From NCBI GenBank assembly GCA_963281255.1, contig OY725488.1, forward strand, positions 1,426,001 through 1,490,000: 64,000 bases of DNA, in the 5' to 3' direction. Position numbers and translations under genes: made by a program. This DNA is from Aphrocallistes beatrix. Taxonomy: Eukaryota; Porifera; Hexactinellida; Sceptrulophora; Aphrocallistidae. The notes under the pieces are model-generated. The model made no database searches. It saw nothing but the letters and a program-made list of their open reading frames with translations, and had not been told where the DNA came from. Below, piece by piece: positions 18,293 to 63,412 of this stretch; the stretch's first letter is position 1, and each line of letters opens with the position of its first letter.

Positions 18293-19249
18293 TCAATCTG
18301 ATGAAGATTGCATCCTTTTCTTCGCATCCTTTATCAGACCCTTCTTTCGTGTTGAACTTAAAATATTCCTAAGATAACGTAGCACAAAGAACCGAGGCAG
18401 TGTCGTGAGTATAAAGGCGACTAGTTCATGCTGTATACATCCGTGAGTGGTGGAACACTTCAAAACTGTTTTCAGAGCTGATTGCACATAAGAAGTAGCA
18501 GAACGAATTATGAAGCTTGGAGGCTTACGGATCATATTGGACGATACGTAACTAGGCGATAAACGCTGGATCACTATTGACTTGTAATCTTTATATTCAT
18601 ATTGAAGACATTGAGTAAATGAATTGACAAATTGTTTTGTGGCACTATACTCAGCTAGGAATGGATATGGAAATAAAGAAGCTACTGAACCAACGTTGAT
18701 GATGACTCCTCTTTTACGATCTAACATCTTAGGTAGTACAATGTGTGTCATTCTGGCCATAGAGAGGATGTTCACTTGTACCATTGTATCTGCTACTTCA
18801 GACTCAAGTTCCAGGAAATATCGAGCATAATAGTACGTTATTCCTACATTATTAACCAGCACTCCTATCTCCAATCCATCCAGCTCTGAAGAGATGTGCT
18901 CATAGATGTCATTTCTTGAAAAATCAGCCTTTATAAGTTTCACATCGACATGGTACTTCTCTCTCAGTTCTCTCCCAACATTCTCTAGCTTTTCCATGGA
19001 ACGACTCACAAGTACAATATTCATTCCCTTCTGTGCCAGCTGTTCACAGAAAGCTTTCCCGATACCGTCAGTAGCTCCTGTCACAACTGCCCATTTGCCA
19101 TAATATTTCAGATCTACACTCTCTGTGAAAAAGAACACGTCGATGCATTTGAACAGCCATGTCCCGAGATTCCAGATGTATCTGAGTAGAAAGAAACTAC
19201 CCACCGTCAATAGGAAGGGTGTCCACACACTGTCTTGGTTTACCAGCAT
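18293..19249 (-). CDS. HSD17B12: HSD17B12-like very-long-chain 3-oxoacyl-CoA reductase, copy 1
   Basis: A 318-residue classical short-chain dehydrogenase of the 17beta-HSD type 12 / Let-767 group. These are ER enzymes that reduce 3-ketoacyl-CoA in fatty-acid elongation and can act on steroids. An N-terminal hydrophobic anchor lies at about 10-40. NADPH motif TGATDGIGKA is at 57-66, NNVG at 133-136, catalytic Ser188 in NVGSVAS, and YSATK at 201-205 (Tyr201, Lys205). The C-terminus is basic (RKKGLIKDAKKRMQ) but lacks the canonical KKxx ending. A second gene 3 kb away (21,557-22,513) encodes a protein I count as 296/318 identical. The duplication includes about 50 bp of 5' and about 60 bp of 3' flank. 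Confidence 0.93.
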   Translation of the reverse strand: MLVNQDSVWTPFLLTVGSFFLLRYIWNLGTWLFKCIDVFFFTESVDLKYYGKWAVVTGATDGIGKAFCEQLAQKGMNIVLVSRSMEKLENVGRELREKYHVDVKLIKADFSRNDIYEHISSELDGLEIGVLVNNVGITYYYARYFLELESEVADTMVQVNILSMARMTHIVLPKMLDRKRGVIINVGSVASLFPYPFLAEYSATKQFVNSFTQCLQYEYKDYKSIVIQRLSPSYVSSNMIRKPPSFIIRSATSYVQSALKTVLKCSTTHGCIQHELVAFILTTLPRFFVLRYLRNILSSTRKKGLIKDAKKRMQSSSD

Positions 19250-21556: not shown

Positions 21557-22513
21557 TCAATCTGATGAAGATTGCATCTTTTTCTTCGCATCCCTTATCA
21601 GACCCTTCTTCCGTGTTGAACTTAAAAGATTCGTAAAGTGGCGTAGCACAAAGAACCGAGGCAGTGTCGTGGCTATAAATGCGAATATTTCATGCTGTAT
21701 ACATCCGTGAGTGGTGGAACACTTCAAAACTGTTTTCAGAGCTGATTGCACATAAGAAGTAGCAGAACGAATTATGAAACTTGGAGGCTTACGGATCATA
21801 TTGGTTGATACGTAATTAGGCGATAAATGTTGTATCACTATTGACTTGTAATCTTTATATTCATATTGAAGACATTGAGTAAATGATTTGACAAATTGTT
21901 TTGTGGCACTATACTCAGCGAGGAATGGATATGGAAATATATAAGTCACTGAACCAACGTTGATGATGACTCCTCTTTTACGATCTAACATCTTAGGTAG
22001 TACAATGTGTGTCATTCTGGCCATAGAGAGGATGTTCACTTGTACCATTGTATCTGCTACTTCAGACTCAAGTTCCAGGAAATATCGAGCATAATAGTAC
22101 GTTATTCCTACATTATTAACCAGCACTCCCATCTCCAATCCCTCCAGCTCTGAAGAGATGTGCTCATAGATGTCATTTCTTGAAAAATCAGCCTTTATAA
22201 GTTTCACATCGACATGGTACTTCTCTCTCAGTTCTCTCCCAACAGTATCTAGCTTTTCCATGGAACGACTCATAAGTACAATATTCATTCCCTTCTGTGC
22301 CAGCTGTTCGCAGAAAGCTTTCCCGATACCGTCAGTAGCTCCTGTCACAACTGCCCATTTGCCATAATATTTCAGATCTACACTCTCTGTGAAAAAGAAC
22401 ACGTCGATGCATTTGAACAGCCATGTCCCGAGATTCCAGATGTATCTGAGTAGAAAGAAACTACCCACCGCCAATAGGAAGGGTGTCCACACACTGTCTT
22501 GGTTTACCAGCAT
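21557..22513 (-). CDS. HSD17B12: HSD17B12-like very-long-chain 3-oxoacyl-CoA reductase, copy 2
   Basis: A 318-residue paralogue of the gene at 18,293-19,249. All catalytic motifs are kept: TGATDGIGKA, NNVG, catalytic Ser in NVGSVT, YSATK. The 22 replacements I count are clustered near the substrate-facing and C-terminal part (VTYIF for VASLF, QHLSPNYVST for QRLSPSYVSS, HEIFAFIAT for HELVAFILT, RHFTNLL for RYLRNIL), while the nucleotide-binding half is nearly unchanged. This hints at relaxed or shifting substrate choice after duplication. Same strand as copy 1, with RPL37A between. Confidence 0.93.
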   Translation of the reverse strand: MLVNQDSVWTPFLLAVGSFFLLRYIWNLGTWLFKCIDVFFFTESVDLKYYGKWAVVTGATDGIGKAFCEQLAQKGMNIVLMSRSMEKLDTVGRELREKYHVDVKLIKADFSRNDIYEHISSELEGLEMGVLVNNVGITYYYARYFLELESEVADTMVQVNILSMARMTHIVLPKMLDRKRGVIINVGSVTYIFPYPFLAEYSATKQFVKSFTQCLQYEYKDYKSIVIQHLSPNYVSTNMIRKPPSFIIRSATSYVQSALKTVLKCSTTHGCIQHEIFAFIATTLPRFFVLRHFTNLLSSTRKKGLIRDAKKKMQSSSD

Positions 22514-41893: not shown

Positions 41894-42346
41894 TTATTTC
41901 GGTTTACAAGCATCCATAATCCAACTTTCAGCTTCCTGAAATTGAGGTATTCCATCACTAATCACTTCCCAGTTCAGTTTATCCTTCACAAAGACATGGC
42001 TTGCCTTGGTTTGGTCCAGCTTGTCAGGGTTGTAGTTGGTGAGAACTCCTAAGTTGATCCATACAGTGTATTCCTCGCAATCATAAGACATATTTATGCT
42101 GCAACCGCATCGGTTACAGAAATAGCGCTCAGCAAAGGTTGAAGAACGAAATTTTGTTAATGTTTCTTCCGTAATAAACTTCATATCTTTTCTCGGGAAT
42201 GAACCGAAAGGAACACCTGGACTGCCTATTGATCTTCTACACATTTCGCCATGACATATCAATACCTGTACCGGATGTAAAGTGTTAAGTATAAATTTGA
42301 CACCCCCACACAAACACTCCCCGACCAAAGATTCAATTTCAGCCAT
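41894..42346 (-). CDS. GFA/CENP-V-domain protein, copy A (zinc ligand lost)
   Basis: A 150-residue protein from the ATG at 42,346, consisting of a single GFA (glutathione-dependent formaldehyde-activating, CENP-V) zinc domain. The family ligands are CxC (Cys11, Cys13), CxCxxC (31, 33, 36) and CxxC (77, 80). Here the middle motif reads CHGEMC, so residue 33 is Gly instead of Cys. The paralogue at 50,185 keeps CHCGMC. I count 137/150 identical residues between the two. Substrate is unknown; GFA proteins in animals are mostly uncharacterised apart from CENP-V. The gene points away from its paralogue. Loss of a metal ligand suggests relaxed constraint or altered function, though the frame is intact. 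Confidence 0.85.
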   Translation of the reverse strand: MAEIESLVGECLCGGVKFILNTLHPVQVLICHGEMCRRSIGSPGVPFGSFPRKDMKFITEETLTKFRSSTFAERYFCNRCGCSINMSYDCEEYTVWINLGVLTNYNPDKLDQTKASHVFVKDKLNWEVISDGIPQFQEAESWIMDACKPK

Positions 42347-43237
42347 TTTAAATATAATATTTAGATTAGTGAAATACAAACTTTAACTCACTTTTTAAAA
42401 AGCCTTCATTAAGGAATAGATGCCTATTTTAGGAAAGACTTGTAGATCTTATCATGTGACTATTTATTTATTAAAATATAGTGTAAGATTATTGGGAATT
42501 GTTAAGTTACCCACTCAAGTAGTATAAACGTAAATTCATATTGGACTGTATGAACTGAGTGATTCTGTTCTGTTGAACGATGATATTCATAACTTCATAT
42601 CGTCACTTTAGTTATAATAATATGGGTCAGCGATATCGAAATATTTCTGTATAGAAAATGGAAATTATATTATATTTTTGAACTTTTTATAAGTAATATT
42701 CATGAATCTCTTTCAAAAACAATGGAAGTAATATATATATTGAGAAAATAATACAGATCTGCTATCCAATCAAACATTTTCTTAACCGTTAAGCTACAGT
42801 GGCGGCTGTTAGCTGGTTAAACGAATCCAGCTTAGCTAGTTGCGTTTAGTCGTTACCAACCGCTTATCATGGCATCCCTGTTTCATAAGTCATTATTAAA
42901 GGCGTGTTCCTTCATTCCTAATAAAATTTAATCCAGACAATTGGTTCATTGGTACAGAGCTGTTCGGATTAGCGAGGGTGTACTGTACTTCAAAGCAATA
43001 ACTTATTGCTTTCAACGGTTGACATGGGATTTTAGGGGTGTAGATTTCGAAAATCATATTTTCGAATCTATTTGATAAATAATTGTTTACTTTTGTTTAC
43101 AATAGATATATAAAGCAAACAAATCTCAAAATGTTAGAAACTAGCTTTCTACTTTGACCTGTAGTTTTCGGGGCGTTGATTCTTAATCTTTCATTTTCGA
43201 ATCTATCGATTCTGAATTTGATATTCCCAGCAATTCT

Positions 43238-50184: not shown

Positions 50185-50637
50185 ATGGCTGAAATTGATT
50201 CTTTGGTTGGTGAGTGTCTGTGTGTGGGTGCTAAATTCACACTGAACACCTTACATCCGGTACAGACGTTGATATGTCACTGTGGGATGTGTAGAAGATC
50301 AATAGGTAGTCCAGGTGTTCCTTTCGGCTCATTTCCTAGGAAAGATATGAAGTTTATTACGGAAGAAACATTAACAAAATTTCGTTCTTCAACTATTGCT
50401 GATCGCTATTTCTGTAACCGATGCGGTTGCAGCATAAATATGTCTTATGATTGCGAGGAATACACTGTATGGATCAACTTAGGAGTTCTCACCAACTACA
50501 ACCCTGACAAGCTGGACCAAACCAAGGCGGGTCATATCCATGTTAAGAATAAACTGAACTGGGAAGTGATTAGTGATGGAATACCTCAATTTCAGGAAGC
50601 TGAAAGTTGGATTATGGATGCTTGTAAACCGAAATAG
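50185..50637 (+). CDS. GFA/CENP-V-domain protein, copy B
   Basis: A 150-residue single-domain GFA protein with all seven zinc-site cysteines: CxC at 11/13, CHCGMC at 31/33/36, CNRC at 77/80. It is about 91 percent identical to copy A at 41,894-42,346, on the opposite strand about 8 kb away. The classic CLCG of the first motif is CLCV here, whereas copy A keeps CLCG. Probably a zinc-dependent thiol-carbon-sulfur lyase-like fold; substrate unknown. Confidence 0.9.
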   Translation: MAEIDSLVGECLCVGAKFTLNTLHPVQTLICHCGMCRRSIGSPGVPFGSFPRKDMKFITEETLTKFRSSTIADRYFCNRCGCSINMSYDCEEYTVWINLGVLTNYNPDKLDQTKAGHIHVKNKLNWEVISDGIPQFQEAESWIMDACKPK

Positions 50638-56474: not shown

Positions 56475-57280
56475 CTGATAAATCTGGTAGGACGATCAAA
56501 GCCGATAATTTGATGAATGGTCGCTACAAACTTAAAATTAACGCTTTTGAGGTAAAAAAAAGATGGTACAAGCGTGAAGGCAATCTGTGGCTCTTATTGC
56601 TACCGACCGGTCGGTGTCAATAGCCACTTCGACATTATAATGCCAGCTATTTCCGGTTGTATAAAGTAATCAAGGCCTGACCTGAAATAGAATGTGATGC
56701 TGAAGCAATCATGGCAACATAGCTGAATATTGGTTCAGGCGGTGGAGCTGAAGTTTACAAACAGCAGCCTTAGTAAATTATATTTGTATATAAACTAGAC
56801 TTGATAGTAGCATAAATAGGTCAAATCCTTATAATTTTAGACAACATTTTCTTTTTTAAGGGTCTTGAAATATGATCTGATTTTGGGTACATAATTTAGT
56901 TCAATGCTTATGTCAACGAACGAATATTTGAATATTCGTTCTGTACGATTTCGTAATTCTAAGTAATTCAGCAAAATATCGAACAACAAACCCTACCACT
57001 TGCTTTGGCGCCGAAAGAGGAGTGTCACACACGACCTAGTAATCAAGCCCGTCCAGATGAACTATGTAGAACCATCTCAGTCAAGATAAGCTGAGTACAT
57101 TGCTGCAAATTACTCTGTGATAGTTCGAAATCCACAGCTGTTCCGTGGGTTGAGTGGCGACAAATTTGATCCTTTACAAAATGTAAGATACTCTCCCATG
57201 AACTTACTCTAGCATCTTTTATTTATTTATTTATTTAATTTATCTCAGTTTTATTTATGTGATTACAAACAGGAAGTTAG
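56475..57280. other. Spacer upstream of the RdRP-helicase gene
   Basis: About 800 bp, presumably promoter and 5' UTR. A TTTATTTATTTATTTAATTT run and the acceptor-like GATTACAAACAG (ending 57,272) lie just before the ATG at 57,281. Confidence 0.5.
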
Positions 57281-60200
57281 ATGTCTAAAATAATTATTTG
57301 CGGAGCGAGCTCCATCGGTAAGACAACACTGGTAGATGACTGGTGTTCTAAGAATAAGCAGTATCGTTATATTAGAAATACTGCGAAGGATGTACTGAGG
57401 AGACAAAAGTTGACTCAGAACGACCTGCTCCGCTCTCTCAGCTCACGCGGGAAGGCAGACTACTTCAAATATCAAAGAATGGTTTCAGAAGAACAGAACA
57501 AGAGGGAAGCTGAGTTAGGTAACCGCCTCTTCATCTCAGACGGTGGTCCCGAGCCACTTGTTCACACCTTCCTCGTGGATGAGGAGAAGGCTATTAATCT
57601 GTCTGAATCGAAAGGATTGAGTGAGTGTTTGGCTCGCTACAGGGAGAGTTTGGTTGTGTTGGTGTCTCCTCTGGAGCCGAGAACGGATGAGGAAGAGGAG
57701 CAGAATCGGTTCACAGATGGGCTACATAGAGTTCTCCGCTTCTTCGGGATTCCATACATGTACTTAGGAGAGAAGGATCGAGAACTGCGATTAGAAATCC
57801 TTAAAAAGGCAGTGCATGGAGAGCTTCCCGTCGATGCAGAGCAGTTTATGGACCAGCTGTGTCTCTCTTTCTATTTGGACAGAGAGACTGCAAGGAAGGC
57901 CACGCTTCCTCCTCCATTCCTTCCAATGCCGAAGCAGGGGAAGGAAGCGAGAGTGCGGACGTTTGACATTAACCCTGGAGAAATCCTGTTGACTTACCCC
58001 CCAATGGACAGTTTCCAGACGAACAGGATGGTTGACCGCTACGGCGAGGAGAACTTCGTACTGATTCAGTTCCACCAGAAGCTCCCAAACAGCTGCATAA
58101 GAGAGGCACTGAAGCGAGGCGTCAGCGTGAATGGAGAGAGGTACCACTTCCTCGGCTGCAGTTCCTCCGGAATGAAGAGCAGGAAGTGCTACCTGCTGAG
58201 GGGGAGTGTGGAGAATGTGGAGTTCGTACTTTCTAGGTGCGGCAACTTTTCTAAGATTAAAATGGTGTCAAAGCGGCTGAAGAGGATCAGCCAGCTGTTC
58301 TCTGTGGCGAAAGACTCAGGAGTTGCGGTCCCGGATGAGAAGGTCAAGTTGATTGAGGATATAGAGACCTCCGGGGGGAATTTCACGGACGGTTGTGGAT
58401 TTGTGGGATTAAAACTCGCGAAACAAATCGCGAAGGGAGCCATAGAACAGGAGATAGAGTCTCCAGGAGATGGAGTTCCAAGCGTATTTCAGATCCGATT
58501 TCAAGGGTGCAAGGGAATTATAATTAAGGATCCGAACGTTGGGAGTGACACGATACATGTCAGGAAATCTATGCAGAAGTTCCAACCAGGGGAAGAACCC
58601 TTCCCGAACGTGTGGGTGTGCGAGCATTCTCGCCCCAACTCTTACGGACATCTCAACAAGCAGTACATCATGCTGCTATCAGGACTAGGGATAAAAGACG
58701 AAGTGTTTCTCCAAAAACAGCGTTCCTTCCTCACCGCTCTGGAGAACATGTTAGTCAATCCCGGCTACGCTATCAAAATGCTCCACTGGCGGAATTTCCC
58801 TACCATCGCATCCATGGTCGCTGGCTGCAAGTCTCCCGAGGATATGAAGCGGGATGAAGTGCAGCTGCCTCTCAGGTACGTGCGGAACAAGCTCATCCTT
58901 AAGCTGGAGAAGCTGAGTCTGCTCATTGTCTATTCGCGGACTCTGTTCGGAGTCTGCGACCCACTCAGTCTGATGAACTATGGGGAATGTTTCGTCCGCA
59001 TTAGTGTAAATGGTTTGCCAAAAACTCTCGCTAAGGGCACAAGAGTGACTGTTGGAAAGAACCCTTGCTACCTCCTGGGAGATGTCCGGGTGCTGACGGC
59101 GGTCGATCACCCGGAGCTGAACCACCTGGTGGACTGCATCGTGTTTCCCGTCAAAGGGAAGAGCCCGCACTCCGCTGAGATAGCTGGCTCGGATCTGGAC
59201 GGGGACAACTACTTCGTTTGTTGGGATAAAGATCTGATTCCTCCGCACATAGCTGAGCCGTACGACTACCCTTCTGTCGAGGCCCCTCCGTCTGACGGGG
59301 TGACACGTGACATGCTGATAGACTACTTCTCCTCCCAGAAGAACATGATGGGGAAGATCAACAACTACTTCGAGTATTGGGCTGATCGGGACGGGCCTGG
59401 CTGTTCCAAGTGCGAGCAGCTCGGCGCTTGGTTCTCGCGGAGTGTGGACTCCTCTAAGACAGGGGACGTAGTGCGCATCCCGCGCTACCTCATGCCCCCC
59501 AGACCTGACCCCACCAATCCTCCCAAGGACAAACCGAACAAAGTGTGGAACCGGATGGTGGAAATAGCTGTGGAGTGTAAGGAGAGGCTTTCTCATGAGA
59601 CGGCTGTGGAAGCTCTGAGTAGTGAGCGCTCTGTCTTCGCTATCAGTGAAGAGTTCATACAGGCCCTCCTGGAAAATAAGGACCGCGGTGCATCCGAGTA
59701 CCATCTCTTCCGACTGGTCTGTAAATGGTGCCAAGTACAGAGTATCCCCGAGAGTGAGAAGGTGGAGAAACTGAGGGAGCTTTCTGATAGCATTAACTTC
59801 GGAGTGTTCACGATGTCGGAGAGGAGAGAAGCGATAGAGATGGGAGTGCCGGCTGAGAAGGTTATGAACGCTCTCAACAAGTCGAAGCTCCTCAGCAGAG
59901 AGATGCTGCAGCCCTTCTATCTCCACACCCCCGCCTGTGGGTGGAAATTCTACTTCCGAGCATCTTGTGCTGAGTTCGACTGGAAGCATCTGTTCCGTGC
60001 CTTGAAAGGGTTTCCCGAATCGCTGCTCATTCTACAGCTGCCAGAATCCCTGAGGTTGGCGTTCCATTTTTTCGGCCCCTTTGGAGAGGGCGAATCTAAA
60101 ATTTCCACCGGATCGCTCGTCTCTTATTTCTTTTCTCCCGAATTTGACTACAAACTGCGCTACGTAACAGAGTCTGAGTACAACCTTCTGCTCGGCGAGA

Positions 60201-63200
60201 CTGTCATTCAGTTCTATCGCGACGACAATCCAGGCAACACTTTCCTTTGGTTGGGAAGCCAAGTGCCTGGCAGGAAGAATCCAGACGAAATAGAATATTA
60301 CGACAGAGTCAGTATTGACCTGACTCGTTTCAGGAAGACAATTTTAAGAGTCAACAGGCATCCTCTCATAAACAAAAAGCCGTTCTACTCCGCAGAGGTA
60401 TTCGTGAAGAGTCAGATAGAAGATGTGGACTATTTCGATATTCACGAGTCAGAACAGACAGAAGAACTGGTCACAATAGATCTAGCTCTCTCTGAAAGTC
60501 TGGAAGAACTGCCCAGTGATGATGAGGAGGAGAAAGAAATAGATTTCATCTCCGCGACTGATACTAAGCCTTTACTGGATCCTAAATCGCCGTTGCAACA
60601 TGTGAAAGAGTTCGCTAAGAAAGGCTATTGTATCCTCTTCAGTAAGCTAATGTCTGTAGTCAAAGATAAGGTGCTAGATCCTGACACGCAGTCTGAAATA
60701 TCGAATGAGTTCCTTACTCTCCTGTCAAACCTCGTTGTTAGTGGCTCACACAGGAAACCGTCCATCCCCGATACGGCAGAATCCATGGAAACCATTTTAC
60801 AGTCACCTCATATTAACTATCCAGCCCCGAAGGATTTGCTAAGACTCTATTCGAGTTTAAATAAGCTACATCTTAATGAAGTTATCCTTCAGCACATTCC
60901 CAAGGCATTAGACTGTCTTGTGTTGAAGACAGCACTTCAATACTTTGAGTGCATTTACCATTGGGAATGGTGGTCCTTCCTACCACTGTCTGTCTCGTGT
61001 CAGTTATCTAACAAACTCTACCTCTTAGTCAGAGACATCCTCCCGCAGTCTGAGGAAAACGGTACACCAGACCCTGCTAGTCTAGCAATGCCAGACACGA
61101 TACAAGACCTAGCTCGTGTGTGTAATGCGCCCACTCCTGTGATTGAAAGGAGTGAGCTGGACAGCTACAAGTGCTACCTGGCACATCTGATGCTAAATCA
61201 CCTGTTGGCAGAGAGTCCAGGCCCTGAAGAGTACACTGCGGTTACAGACACGAAGGACAGTGTGTGCATGCTTCGGGCAGCTAATACCAATCCTGAGGAT
61301 ACCGCTGTTAACGAGGAGCTAGAGAGTAGCAGTGAGGACGAGGATGAGAATAAGGCAGAGCCGAGCAAAGATACAGTAGTAGTGGTAGAGAAAAAAGACA
61401 AGAAGAAGAAGAAGAAGAAGAAAGTTAAATATTTTAAAGTGTGTTTCACTCGAATTAACAAGATTGCATCAAGTAAATTCGCAGCTGGGTCATATGTTAA
61501 AATACGACTTTTGACAAAACCTCAATCTGAGCACTCTAGCGAGCCTATAGCACTCGGCTGTCTGTCCCGAGTGTCCCGGAGTCCGGGCGCCATTTCGGTG
61601 GCAATCCCAGAGCCAGTGCCCAGCTGCATCAAGAGGTCAGCACAGCTGCAAGTGGGATTCTGGTGTTTGACTCTAGTCGGAAATGTGACCAGCTTCAAAA
61701 GATCCAGTAAAGCTCTAGAGCGCCTCGAAAACTCACCAGACATCACCTCCATCCTGATTTCCCAAGATGCCTTCCCTCCTCAAGTTCAGAGAGAGGAGAT
61801 GGAATTGGAGTTTAATTTAGAATCGATAGATAGGGAATCTGGACCTAGCACAAATGGGCCTTTAGAAAATCCATACAAAAAAAGGAGACATTGCAATGCG
61901 TGCACTAACAGAGCTCACTTCAACAAGAGTCAAGAGGACGCTATATATTCAGCTCTAAACCAACGCCTCACACTTATACACGGACCTCCTGGCACGGGAA
62001 AGACATTCGTAGCTTCGGAGATTATCCATCAAATGTGCCACATACGAGGAAGAGATAGAGATGAGGAGGACAGGAAGAGTAAGATTTTGGTAGCAGCAGA
62101 GACGAATAACGCGGTGGACAATCTCACTCGCAAACTCGTAGCTCTGAATATTCTGGTGGTGCGAGTTGGTAAGTTAAGTCTGATTTCTAAAGATATCCAC
62201 GAGCATACATTGGACCGACAGGTTGAGATGAAACGGGTCGAGTTGGGTAAGGATCGGAAGGGGGAGTTCCAGTACCCCAAACTGAAGAAAGAGATTCTCC
62301 AATCTGCCGATGTGATAGCCACGACTTGTAGCGGAGCTGGTGACATGGATCTGAAGGATTTTACATTTCCATTCATCCTCGTTGACGAGGCCACGCAAGC
62401 CATAGAACCGGTCTCATTGATTTCCATTGCTAAATCATGCCGGCAGCTTGTACTGATTGGAGATCCGAAGCAATTGGCGCCAACACTGCCTAAAAACCAG
62501 AATTCGCCAGAAAACAATTCTGAAATTATTCCTCGATTTGATGCTCTACGAGTTACACTATTCCACAGACTTTACAGGAGACTGGAGCCTCTATTTCTGG
62601 AAGTGCAGCACCGCATGCACCCATACATTTCTTTTTTTCCATCCTGTGTATTCTATTCCGGGAAGTTGAAGAATGGTGTCACAAAAGATGAACGAGAGCC
62701 TCCCCAATTGAAATTTCTCCACAAAGATAGACCCATCGTGTTCATAGATGTTGAGTCGCAAGAATCCCGTGGTAGGTCGAAGAAGAATGTGAGTGAGGCT
62801 AAAGTTGTAGTTAAAATAATCGAGAAGCTGATGGCAACAACCACGGTTTCTCTTGACGACATCGCCATCCTGACCCCATATGATGAACAGGTCAGATGCA
62901 TCAAGGATGGCCTGGAATTCGTGGCTAAGGTGGAAGTGTGTTCCATCGATGGCTTCCAAGGGAAAGAGAAAGATATCATTGTGTTCAGTACCGTGAGGAG
63001 TAATAGGAACGAGAGCCTAGGGTTCACAGATGACCAATACAGGATTAATGTGCTGCTTACTCGGGCGAAGATAGCGCTTATTGGAGTTGGCAATAGTAGA
63101 ACTATTTCCACTTCTAAGATATGGAAAGAGTGGCTCGATTGGCACAAGTCCATACTTACTGAGGATGAATTCTATGACCTCGTTGAGAATAAAGAAACGA

Positions 63201-63412
63201 AAAGAAATGAGCCAAATAGTAGACCAACTCGTGGAGGTAGGAATCAAAGCGAGCATGAGAGAAATGGGAATTCGTACAAGAGTAGAAAACCTGATGGAGA
63301 TGGAACTCAATATTATCACACAGGCAAAAAGCAAACTCTTGGCAACTTAGTTACAGTTTCAAATAAAAAATCTCAGAGAGAGAGGAAGTATCACCGTGAC
63401 TCTGAAGTTTAG
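57281..63412 (+). CDS. P-loop kinase-like / RNA-dependent RNA polymerase / UPF1-type SF1 helicase fusion
   Basis: A 2,043-residue single-exon protein in three parts. (1) About 1-190: a P-loop domain with Walker A GASSIGKTT (8-16) and LFISDGGPEP (about 83-92), resembling NadR/AAA_28-type kinases. (2) About 225-800: a cellular RdRP (QDE-1/EGO-1 type), beginning LTYPPMDSFQTNRMVDRYGE. It contains FLGCSSSGMKSRKCYLLRG and the catalytic double-psi barrel motif AGSDLDGDNYFVCWD (Asp638, Asp640, Asp642). (3) About 1,540-1,960: an SF1 helicase of the UPF1/ZNFX1/SMUBP2 group, with motif I GPPGTGKT (1568-1575), motif II DEAT (1702-1705), motif III GDPKQLAP (1727-1734), HRMHP (1777-1781), GFQGKEKD (1891-1898) and LLTRAK (1925-1930). 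An acidic then poly-Lys linker lies at about 1,346-1,387, and a basic Arg/Asn/Ser tail closes it. All visible catalytic residues are intact. Probable role: unwinding a template and copying it to dsRNA for small-RNA amplification. Confidence 0.93.
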   Translation: MSKIIICGASSIGKTTLVDDWCSKNKQYRYIRNTAKDVLRRQKLTQNDLLRSLSSRGKADYFKYQRMVSEEQNKREAELGNRLFISDGGPEPLVHTFLVDEEKAINLSESKGLSECLARYRESLVVLVSPLEPRTDEEEEQNRFTDGLHRVLRFFGIPYMYLGEKDRELRLEILKKAVHGELPVDAEQFMDQLCLSFYLDRETARKATLPPPFLPMPKQGKEARVRTFDINPGEILLTYPPMDSFQTNRMVDRYGEENFVLIQFHQKLPNSCIREALKRGVSVNGERYHFLGCSSSGMKSRKCYLLRGSVENVEFVLSRCGNFSKIKMVSKRLKRISQLFSVAKDSGVAVPDEKVKLIEDIETSGGNFTDGCGFVGLKLAKQIAKGAIEQEIESPGDGVPSVFQIRFQGCKGIIIKDPNVGSDTIHVRKSMQKFQPGEEPFPNVWVCEHSRPNSYGHLNKQYIMLLSGLGIKDEVFLQKQRSFLTALENMLVNPGYAIKMLHWRNFPTIASMVAGCKSPEDMKRDEVQLPLRYVRNKLILKLEKLSLLIVYSRTLFGVCDPLSLMNYGECFVRISVNGLPKTLAKGTRVTVGKNPCYLLGDVRVLTAVDHPELNHLVDCIVFPVKGKSPHSAEIAGSDLDGDNYFVCWDKDLIPPHIAEPYDYPSVEAPPSDGVTRDMLIDYFSSQKNMMGKINNYFEYWADRDGPGCSKCEQLGAWFSRSVDSSKTGDVVRIPRYLMPPRPDPTNPPKDKPNKVWNRMVEIAVECKERLSHETAVEALSSERSVFAISEEFIQALLENKDRGASEYHLFRLVCKWCQVQSIPESEKVEKLRELSDSINFGVFTMSERREAIEMGVPAEKVMNALNKSKLLSREMLQPFYLHTPACGWKFYFRASCAEFDWKHLFRALKGFPESLLILQLPESLRLAFHFFGPFGEGESKISTGSLVSYFFSPEFDYKLRYVTESEYNLLLGETVIQFYRDDNPGNTFLWLGSQVPGRKNPDEIEYYDRVSIDLTRFRKTILRVNRHPLINKKPFYSAEVFVKSQIEDVDYFDIHESEQTEELVTIDLALSESLEELPSDDEEEKEIDFISATDTKPLLDPKSPLQHVKEFAKKGYCILFSKLMSVVKDKVLDPDTQSEISNEFLTLLSNLVVSGSHRKPSIPDTAESMETILQSPHINYPAPKDLLRLYSSLNKLHLNEVILQHIPKALDCLVLKTALQYFECIYHWEWWSFLPLSVSCQLSNKLYLLVRDILPQSEENGTPDPASLAMPDTIQDLARVCNAPTPVIERSELDSYKCYLAHLMLNHLLAESPGPEEYTAVTDTKDSVCMLRAANTNPEDTAVNEELESSSEDEDENKAEPSKDTVVVVEKKDKKKKKKKKVKYFKVCFTRINKIASSKFAAGSYVKIRLLTKPQSEHSSEPIALGCLSRVSRSPGAISVAIPEPVPSCIKRSAQLQVGFWCLTLVGNVTSFKRSSKALERLENSPDITSILISQDAFPPQVQREEMELEFNLESIDRESGPSTNGPLENPYKKRRHCNACTNRAHFNKSQEDAIYSALNQRLTLIHGPPGTGKTFVASEIIHQMCHIRGRDRDEEDRKSKILVAAETNNAVDNLTRKLVALNILVVRVGKLSLISKDIHEHTLDRQVEMKRVELGKDRKGEFQYPKLKKEILQSADVIATTCSGAGDMDLKDFTFPFILVDEATQAIEPVSLISIAKSCRQLVLIGDPKQLAPTLPKNQNSPENNSEIIPRFDALRVTLFHRLYRRLEPLFLEVQHRMHPYISFFPSCVFYSGKLKNGVTKDEREPPQLKFLHKDRPIVFIDVESQESRGRSKKNVSEAKVVVKIIEKLMATTTVSLDDIAILTPYDEQVRCIKDGLEFVAKVEVCSIDGFQGKEKDIIVFSTVRSNRNESLGFTDDQYRINVLLTRAKIALIGVGNSRTISTSKIWKEWLDWHKSILTEDEFYDLVENKETKRNEPNSRPTRGGRNQSEHERNGNSYKSRKPDGDGTQYYHTGKKQTLGNLVTVSNKKSQRERKYHRDSEV

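Follow-up and report, generated by a model that had tools for sequence, protein, structure and literature searches.

The 64,000-nucleotide stretch of the Aphrocallistes beatrix genome analysed here (contig OY725488.1, positions 1,426,001 to 1,490,000; hereafter "the window") contains a single uninterrupted reading frame at 57281..63412 (+), which runs from ATG to stop and encodes a protein of 2043 aa. We consider it fairly probable, from sequence and predicted structure, that the frame represents an intact animal gene whose product is a three-part enzyme, in which a kinase-like P-loop domain, a cellular RNA-dependent RNA polymerase (RdRP) and a superfamily 1 (SF1) helicase form a motor-coupled, RNA-templated RNA polymerase that would make double-stranded RNA (dsRNA). 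The direct basis of this prediction is the frame itself, the domains and their order, the conserved catalytic residues, the fold matches of the predicted models, and the phylogenetic spread of the architecture. The features of the gene are as follows (window coordinates; AF2 stands for AlphaFold2):

57281..63412 (+): whole single-frame gene (2043 aa), kinase-like domain / RdRP / helical linker / UPF1-type helicase
57281..57850 (+): NadR/Ttd14-type (AAA_28, PF13521) P-loop domain, N-terminal, residues 1–190, with the Walker A motif GASSIGKT at 8–15
57983..60250 (+): cellular RdRP module, residues 235–990 (Pfam RdRP 235–744)
59192..59206 (+): DLDGD, the RdRP catalytic motif, residues 638–642
60527..61240 (+): predicted all-helical linker domain, about residues 1083–1320 (AF2 model)
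61430..61720 (+): beta-barrel (1B-like) insertion of UPF1-type helicases, about residues 1384–1480 (boundaries from AF2 strands)
61898..63166 (+): SF1 helicase core (AAA_11/AAA_12), residues 1540–1962
61982..62005 (+): helicase motif I (Walker A) GPPGTGKT, residues 1568–1575
63206..63409 (+): basic C-terminal tail, low-confidence and presumably disordered, about residues 1976–2043

The initial annotation of this DNA had proposed one intact 6,132-bp frame carrying a P-loop domain, a cellular RdRP and an SF1 helicase in that order. The frame indeed comprises 2043 codons, and the positions given for Walker A, DLDGD and the SF1 motifs are correct, with Walker A GASSIGKT at 8–15, DLDGD at 638–642 and the SF1 motifs from 1568 onward. 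The Pfam domains agree with the proposed order, which recurs across phyla: AAA_28 matches residues 3–167 (E 1.4e-8, 35.5 bits versus a cut-off of 27), RdRP PF05183 residues 235–744 (E 4.7e-109, 366.1 bits versus 23.8), AAA_11 starts at residue 1546, and AAA_12 covers 1757–1939 (E 2.6e-52). Further along the helicase, DEAT occupies residues 1702–1705 and the arginine of motif VI is residue 1928. As to the 1B-like barrel, the span that aligns with UPF1 and IGHMBP2 starts ahead of the RecA core. In the AF2 models, the predicted local distance difference test score (pLDDT) of the linker is 78–96 in most 10-residue blocks, with dips to 56, and that of the C-terminal tail is below 50 from model residue 996 onward. 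Length and homology exclude a chance frame, and a database protein (P0001) is identical to that of the window except for one residue (I12V). The first Walker A lies at residue 8 or 9 in 46 of the 80 complete fusions described below and elsewhere within the first 65 residues in 18, its strict pattern being unmatched in the other 16; since it mostly sits at residue 8 or 9, the start methionine of the window protein agrees with those of its relatives. No second RdRP, kinase or helicase copy was found in the six frames of the window (best other match 0.3 bits). Single-exon genes are reported to be abundant in the genome of a glass sponge (PMC10282587), and a 6.1-kb single-exon gene is therefore unremarkable in such an animal. 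The stretch ending ACAAACAG, 8 bases upstream of the start codon (window 57240–57281, +), resembles a 3' splice acceptor; a junction of a spliced leader or of an intron in the 5' untranslated region ahead of the start codon is possible, and leaders are mentioned for a glass sponge (PMC10282587).

A similarity search with the window protein retrieved 231 proteins at E<=1e-3, many of which (among the best 120 of the 231, those used here) align over 95–100% of the length. Together with two further sets (all 39 and the best 120 of 304), these yielded 277 distinct proteins, or 278 with that of the window. All five modules are present in 80 of them (the window protein and P0001 being two of the 80) and all but the kinase in 37, the others containing the RdRP only (100), the kinase only (37) or a partial set (24). 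The module order is identical in 80/80 complete fusions. The profile hidden Markov models (HMMs) of the modules were built from 51-row alignments, in which about 47 of the 80 complete fusions are themselves rows. For control, we trained a kinase HMM on 21 sequences from the sponge side (two of them from named sponges). Of the 59 complete fusions not used in its training it matched 58 at E <= 1e-5 (sole miss P0112; weakest match Seminavis, 18.9 bits), and of the kinase-less fusions 0/37. The RdRP match starts at residue 1–50 in 32 of these 37; many of the database entries resemble frames translated without splicing, in which an upstream kinase exon may be missed, and the RdRP-only rows, which may likewise be unspliced, are no proof of absent modules.

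The nearest named relative, among the matches listed, is P0009 from the glass sponge Oopsacas minuta (Hexactinellida; 57% over 100%), the proteins P0002–P0005 being nearer still (58–62%). Named carriers of the complete fusion include Oopsacas, Dysidea, Mercenaria, Mya, Dreissena, Actinostola, Adineta and the diatom Seminavis, so that they span a glass sponge, a demosponge, a sea anemone, bivalves, a rotifer and a diatom. Precomputed Pfam assignments place PF13521 in Oopsacas P0009, Dysidea, Mercenaria, Mya, Actinostola and Adineta, but not in Dreissena or Seminavis. The protein from Ephydatia has the kinase, RdRP, linker and helicase, with the barrel not recognised, and RdRP-helicase proteins without the kinase occur in amphioxus, a crinoid, an octocoral and fungi. 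Scans of viral_contigs (354 pattern matches) and genome_contigs (595) with the fusion alignment produced pattern matches and no relative, and a viral or prokaryotic source was rejected; these are non-animal collections, which say little about animals.

Conservation was counted over the 81 fusions that combine a kinase, an RdRP and a helicase. In the RdRP motif, D638 is retained in 80/81, D640 in 79/81 and D642 in 81/81; in the helicase, K1574 in 81/81, D1702 in 79/81, E1703 in 77/81 and R1928 in 79/81. The corresponding values in the kinase-like domain are 75/81 for K14, 64/81 for D87 and 58/81 for R88, the last of which is G in the window protein. Judged from these alignments, the polymerase and motor sites are kept while the kinase-like domain drifts, as in the window protein (DGG), Oopsacas P0009, bivalves and Seminavis.

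On sequence and predicted fold, the helicase is a UPF1/IGHMBP2-type SF1 enzyme, nearer to UPF1 than to ZNFX1. The best match among solved SF1 helicases is of the UPF1/IGHMBP2 type, and in sequence, profile and fold comparisons alike UPF1 and IGHMBP2 come closer than ZNFX1 (Hrr1 itself being outside the comparison); of the "UPF1/ZNFX1-type" label in the initial annotation, the first half thus holds and the second is not supported. The score against the IGHMBP2 family TIGR00376 (NCBIfam) is 289.6 bits, below the curated cut-off of 348.9. UPF1 proper carries an N-terminal zinc-rich CH domain beside its helicase; this domain is absent from the best 25 of the 28 Pfam families matched by the window protein (a list extending down to E 0.07). 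The RdRP model exhibits the RDR2/QDE-1 fold. The N-terminal domain combines a P-loop with a PF13521 match above the cut-off, as expected of NadR/Ttd14 AAA_28 domains. NadR is also the top Foldseek match among P-loop proteins, with a weak E of 6.2e-3 that is close to that of shikimate kinase (7.2e-3), and its lead over other P-loop folds rests on VIA-align. None of the VIA-align matches listed for model 2 was restricted to the helical linker, an absence that carries no evidential weight. Weak PDB sequence matches of the first 200 residues, mostly to Rab7 (E >=0.019), were discarded in favour of the Pfam and fold matches. PF13521 and the fold are shared with the ribosylnicotinamide kinase part of NadR and with Ttd14-like proteins (in Fusarium, P-loop proteins of ~215 aa); unlike them, the window domain is fused to an RdRP, and the DRG motif of most fusion relatives is replaced by DGG (residues 87–89). 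In the window protein this domain is probably a nucleotide sensor or binder and not a fully active kinase.

The RdRP tree (40 rows, midpoint root) was obtained after manual removal of 25 rows from a 65-row quick tree. The removed rows include the kinase-bearing P0014, P0016, Oopsacas P0017, P0161, P0163, P0166 and Rotaria, which in the quick tree fall in the kinase-bearing group (33 rows, SH-like approximate likelihood ratio test, SH-aLRT, 95). The sample was drawn by similarity to the window protein, and rows for EGO-1, QDE-1 and Rdp1 are absent. The kinase-bearing proteins form one group (24 rows, support 95/89), which includes the kinase-less P0083, P0096 and P0099. Within it the sponges are one group (12 rows, three of them named, 100/99), and the anemone is grouped with bivalves (8 rows, 98/97). 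Seminavis robusta P0116 adjoins the latter on a long branch (95/88), for which gene transfer or tree misplacement is possible; the three parts of this diatom protein are arranged as in the other fusions, and its first Walker A is degenerate (GPVGCGRS). The kinase-less animal proteins (6 rows, of which P0196 is RdRP only) and the fungal ones (7 rows, Mycena being RdRP only) form separate groups, each supported at 100/100. The 65-row tree repeats these groupings, with groups of 33, 13 and 13 rows (SH-aLRT 95, 100 and 100).

The linker links the animal forms. Profile-profile comparison of the sponge set and of the mollusc-cnidarian set with five kinase-less animal proteins (P0115 and P0117–P0120) returned hhalign probabilities of 96.7 and 97.4, compared with 0.1–0.2 for the ends of plant RDR1 as a control, and on our reading, given this homology in kinase-bearing and kinase-less proteins, a single fusion would suffice for the animal forms. 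A point against a single animal fusion is that a plain HMM of the sponge linker finds the five kinase-less linkers weakly (E 3e-6 to 0.53), so that the reading depends on the profile-profile comparison. The kinase would then have been gained or lost between the two animal groups. Fungi versus three animal sets gave probabilities of 9.6 (sponge form), 13.4 and 12.1, which are not significant; with this result, and with a tree lacking EGO-1, QDE-1 and Rdp1, a common origin with the fungal fusions is not shown. We assign the window gene to an ancient branch of proteins in which an RdRP and a helicase are fused, a branch that is old in animals.

In fission yeast (the RNA-directed RNA polymerase complex, RDRC, of Rdp1, Hrr1 and Cid12) and in Caenorhabditis elegans (EGO-1/ZNFX-1), an RdRP works with an SF1 helicase that is a separate protein, whereas in the window protein the helicase is fused and nearer to UPF1 than to ZNFX1; for the latter reason, a fused Rdp1-Hrr1 pair by descent is not likely. 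The initial annotation also had the protein replace the multi-subunit RDRC, a claim that finds no support here: the best 25 of 28 Pfam families contain no Cid12-like nucleotidyltransferase, and a separate Cid12-like protein is possible. To our knowledge, plant RDR2 and QDE-1 have neither a fused helicase nor an AAA_28 domain. Closer counterparts are found in fungi and in animals other than sponges. Fusarium graminearum Fgrdrp5 is described as having an RdRP followed by DEXDc (1277–1478) and AAA (PF13087, 1475–1677) regions (PMC11237814). It and its fungal relatives P0197, P0201–P0203 and P0213 resemble the sponge form in that a cellular RdRP precedes an SF1 helicase, and P0222 of the fungal group is likewise nearest to NAM7/UPF1. 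Unlike the sponge form, Fgrdrp5, compared by its published description, has no N-terminal AAA_28 domain described, and the fungal RdRPs and linkers stand apart as reported above. For amphioxus, the Fig 1 legend of PMC6396948 gives BL02069 an AAA_12 domain besides the RdRP, and in our sample amphioxus P0117 and P0120, octocoral P0118 and crinoid P0204 have an RdRP followed by a UPF1-like helicase; P0117–P0120 differ from the sponge form in lacking a match to AAA_28, for which they were searched, and in belonging to the separate six-row tree group. The view that no such protein had been described therefore does not hold for an RdRP with a C-terminal SF1 helicase, which is already in print (Fgrdrp5 and the BL02069 legend). 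For the three-part form, our literature search met no description; most subscription journals lie outside the coverage of that search, so this is weak evidence of novelty. What stands out is the third domain, the spread in animals, and the sponges.

As to the mechanism, we propose that the helicase motor would bind single-stranded RNA and clear it of structure and proteins, and that the fused RdRP would copy the cleared RNA into dsRNA. UPF1-family motors travel 5' to 3', whereas templates are read 3' to 5' by polymerases, and because of these opposite directions a template-bound motor is unable to advance in front of the polymerase. If the family polarity holds here, the motor may carry the polymerase to the 3' end of the template, where an RdRP has to start, which we regard as the most likely use of the fusion; the P-loop domain, in its N-terminal place, would be a nucleotide sensor or binder in the window copy. 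Several observations weigh against this three-part enzyme. The P-loop motifs are lost in several lineages and partly so in the window protein. The RdRP motif is damaged in 2/81 proteins (SLGED in Oopsacas P0017 and DLAGD in P0014), both of which also have DE changed to DD in the helicase, and P0079 and P0084 are altered in DE only. P0014 and P0017 are full-length and near the glass-sponge proteins, and are likely to be inactive paralogs of the fusion. In addition, amphioxus, where BL02069 combines RdRP and AAA_12, is reported to show neither an RNA interference (RNAi) role nor clear RdRP products (PMC6396948).

An artefact, i.e. an assembly join or a read-through of two or three genes, is extremely improbable: the order that would have to arise by accident is the one found in 80 of the 278 sampled proteins (two of the 80 being the window protein), with carriers from several phyla named at NCBI, and the assembly join against which the initial annotation had warned was rejected on these grounds. 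The product could be used in RNAi, as the initial annotation inferred, the protein being a self-contained secondary small interfering RNA (siRNA) enzyme that amplifies the response by providing dsRNA for Dicer or by making short 5'-triphosphate siRNAs. This is conceivable but on balance unlikely. Deletion of Fgrdrp5 reduces 5'-U reads of 21–25 nt by about 32% and lowers antisense-exon small RNAs from 27.3% to 18.91%, with a moderate loss of exonic siRNAs (PMC11237814); however, Fgrdrp5 is described without a kinase domain and the fungal fusions group apart from the sponge ones. The siRNA signature is reported as absent in amphioxus (PMC6396948), and in a sponge and an anemone with identified RdRPs viral small RNAs were not abundant, in libraries that covered 5'-triphosphate species (PMC6085071).

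The dsRNA could equally serve protein-based innate sensing outside RNAi, with viral single strands being converted into dsRNA ligands of RIG-I-like receptors (RLRs) and OAS, a use that we also regard as doubtful. Nematostella RdRP1-3 respond to poly(I:C) alongside homologs of RLRs, OAS1, RNase L and viperin, but Dicer1 and AGO2 also respond (PMC8476169), which speaks for an RNAi role as well; either way, the observation would bear on the fusion if RdRP1-3 include the fused kind. A non-RNAi role is speculated on in the amphioxus paper (PMC6396948). A role in RNA surveillance, where the UPF1-like part would recognise aberrant mRNA and the RdRP would mark it by copying, appears quite improbable. 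The helicase is UPF1-like, and an interaction network ties Fgrdrp5 to NAM7 and a factor of nonsense-mediated decay (NMD) (PMC11237814), but the absence of the CH domain from the Pfam list makes the usual docking to the NMD machinery unlikely. A broader scenario, which we offer as speculation and consider rather unlikely, is that the animal ancestor had a kinase-like/RdRP/UPF1-helicase machine that would run to the 3' end of an RNA and then copy the strand, the resulting dsRNA raising an immune alarm independent of RNAi. The NadR-type domain would gate this machine by a nucleotide metabolite or act on the RNA 5' end, and many animal RdRPs of unknown function would be its remnants.

Animal RdRPs have been termed an evolutionary enigma, repeatedly lost and with no clear RNAi role in amphioxus (PMC6396948), where one of six RdRP genes exhibits presence-absence variation (PMC12373286). 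The fusion family offers a concrete object for this puzzle, as it places polymerase, motor and nucleotide-binding parts in one polypeptide, with polymerase and motor sites intact in fusions of several animal phyla. For sponges, the literature diverges: RdRPs were not found in three species (PMC4752309) and Amphimedon is said to have none (PMC6211395), while Porifera are reported to have RdRPs, with one in the sponge studied (PMC6085071). The fusion proteins of Dysidea, Ephydatia and Oopsacas favour the latter report over the other two. RNAi terms have no match in the accessible part of PMC10280926.

Frames near the fusion gene carry SSXT, SPMIP8 and PIH1 domains, all of which are animal families. 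Elsewhere in the window, two short-chain dehydrogenase genes of 318 aa each (18293–19249 and 21557–22513, both −) share 296 identical residues. Two frames, at 41894–42379 (−) and 50185–50637 (+), encode glutathione-dependent formaldehyde-activating (GFA) domains, a mainly bacterial family.

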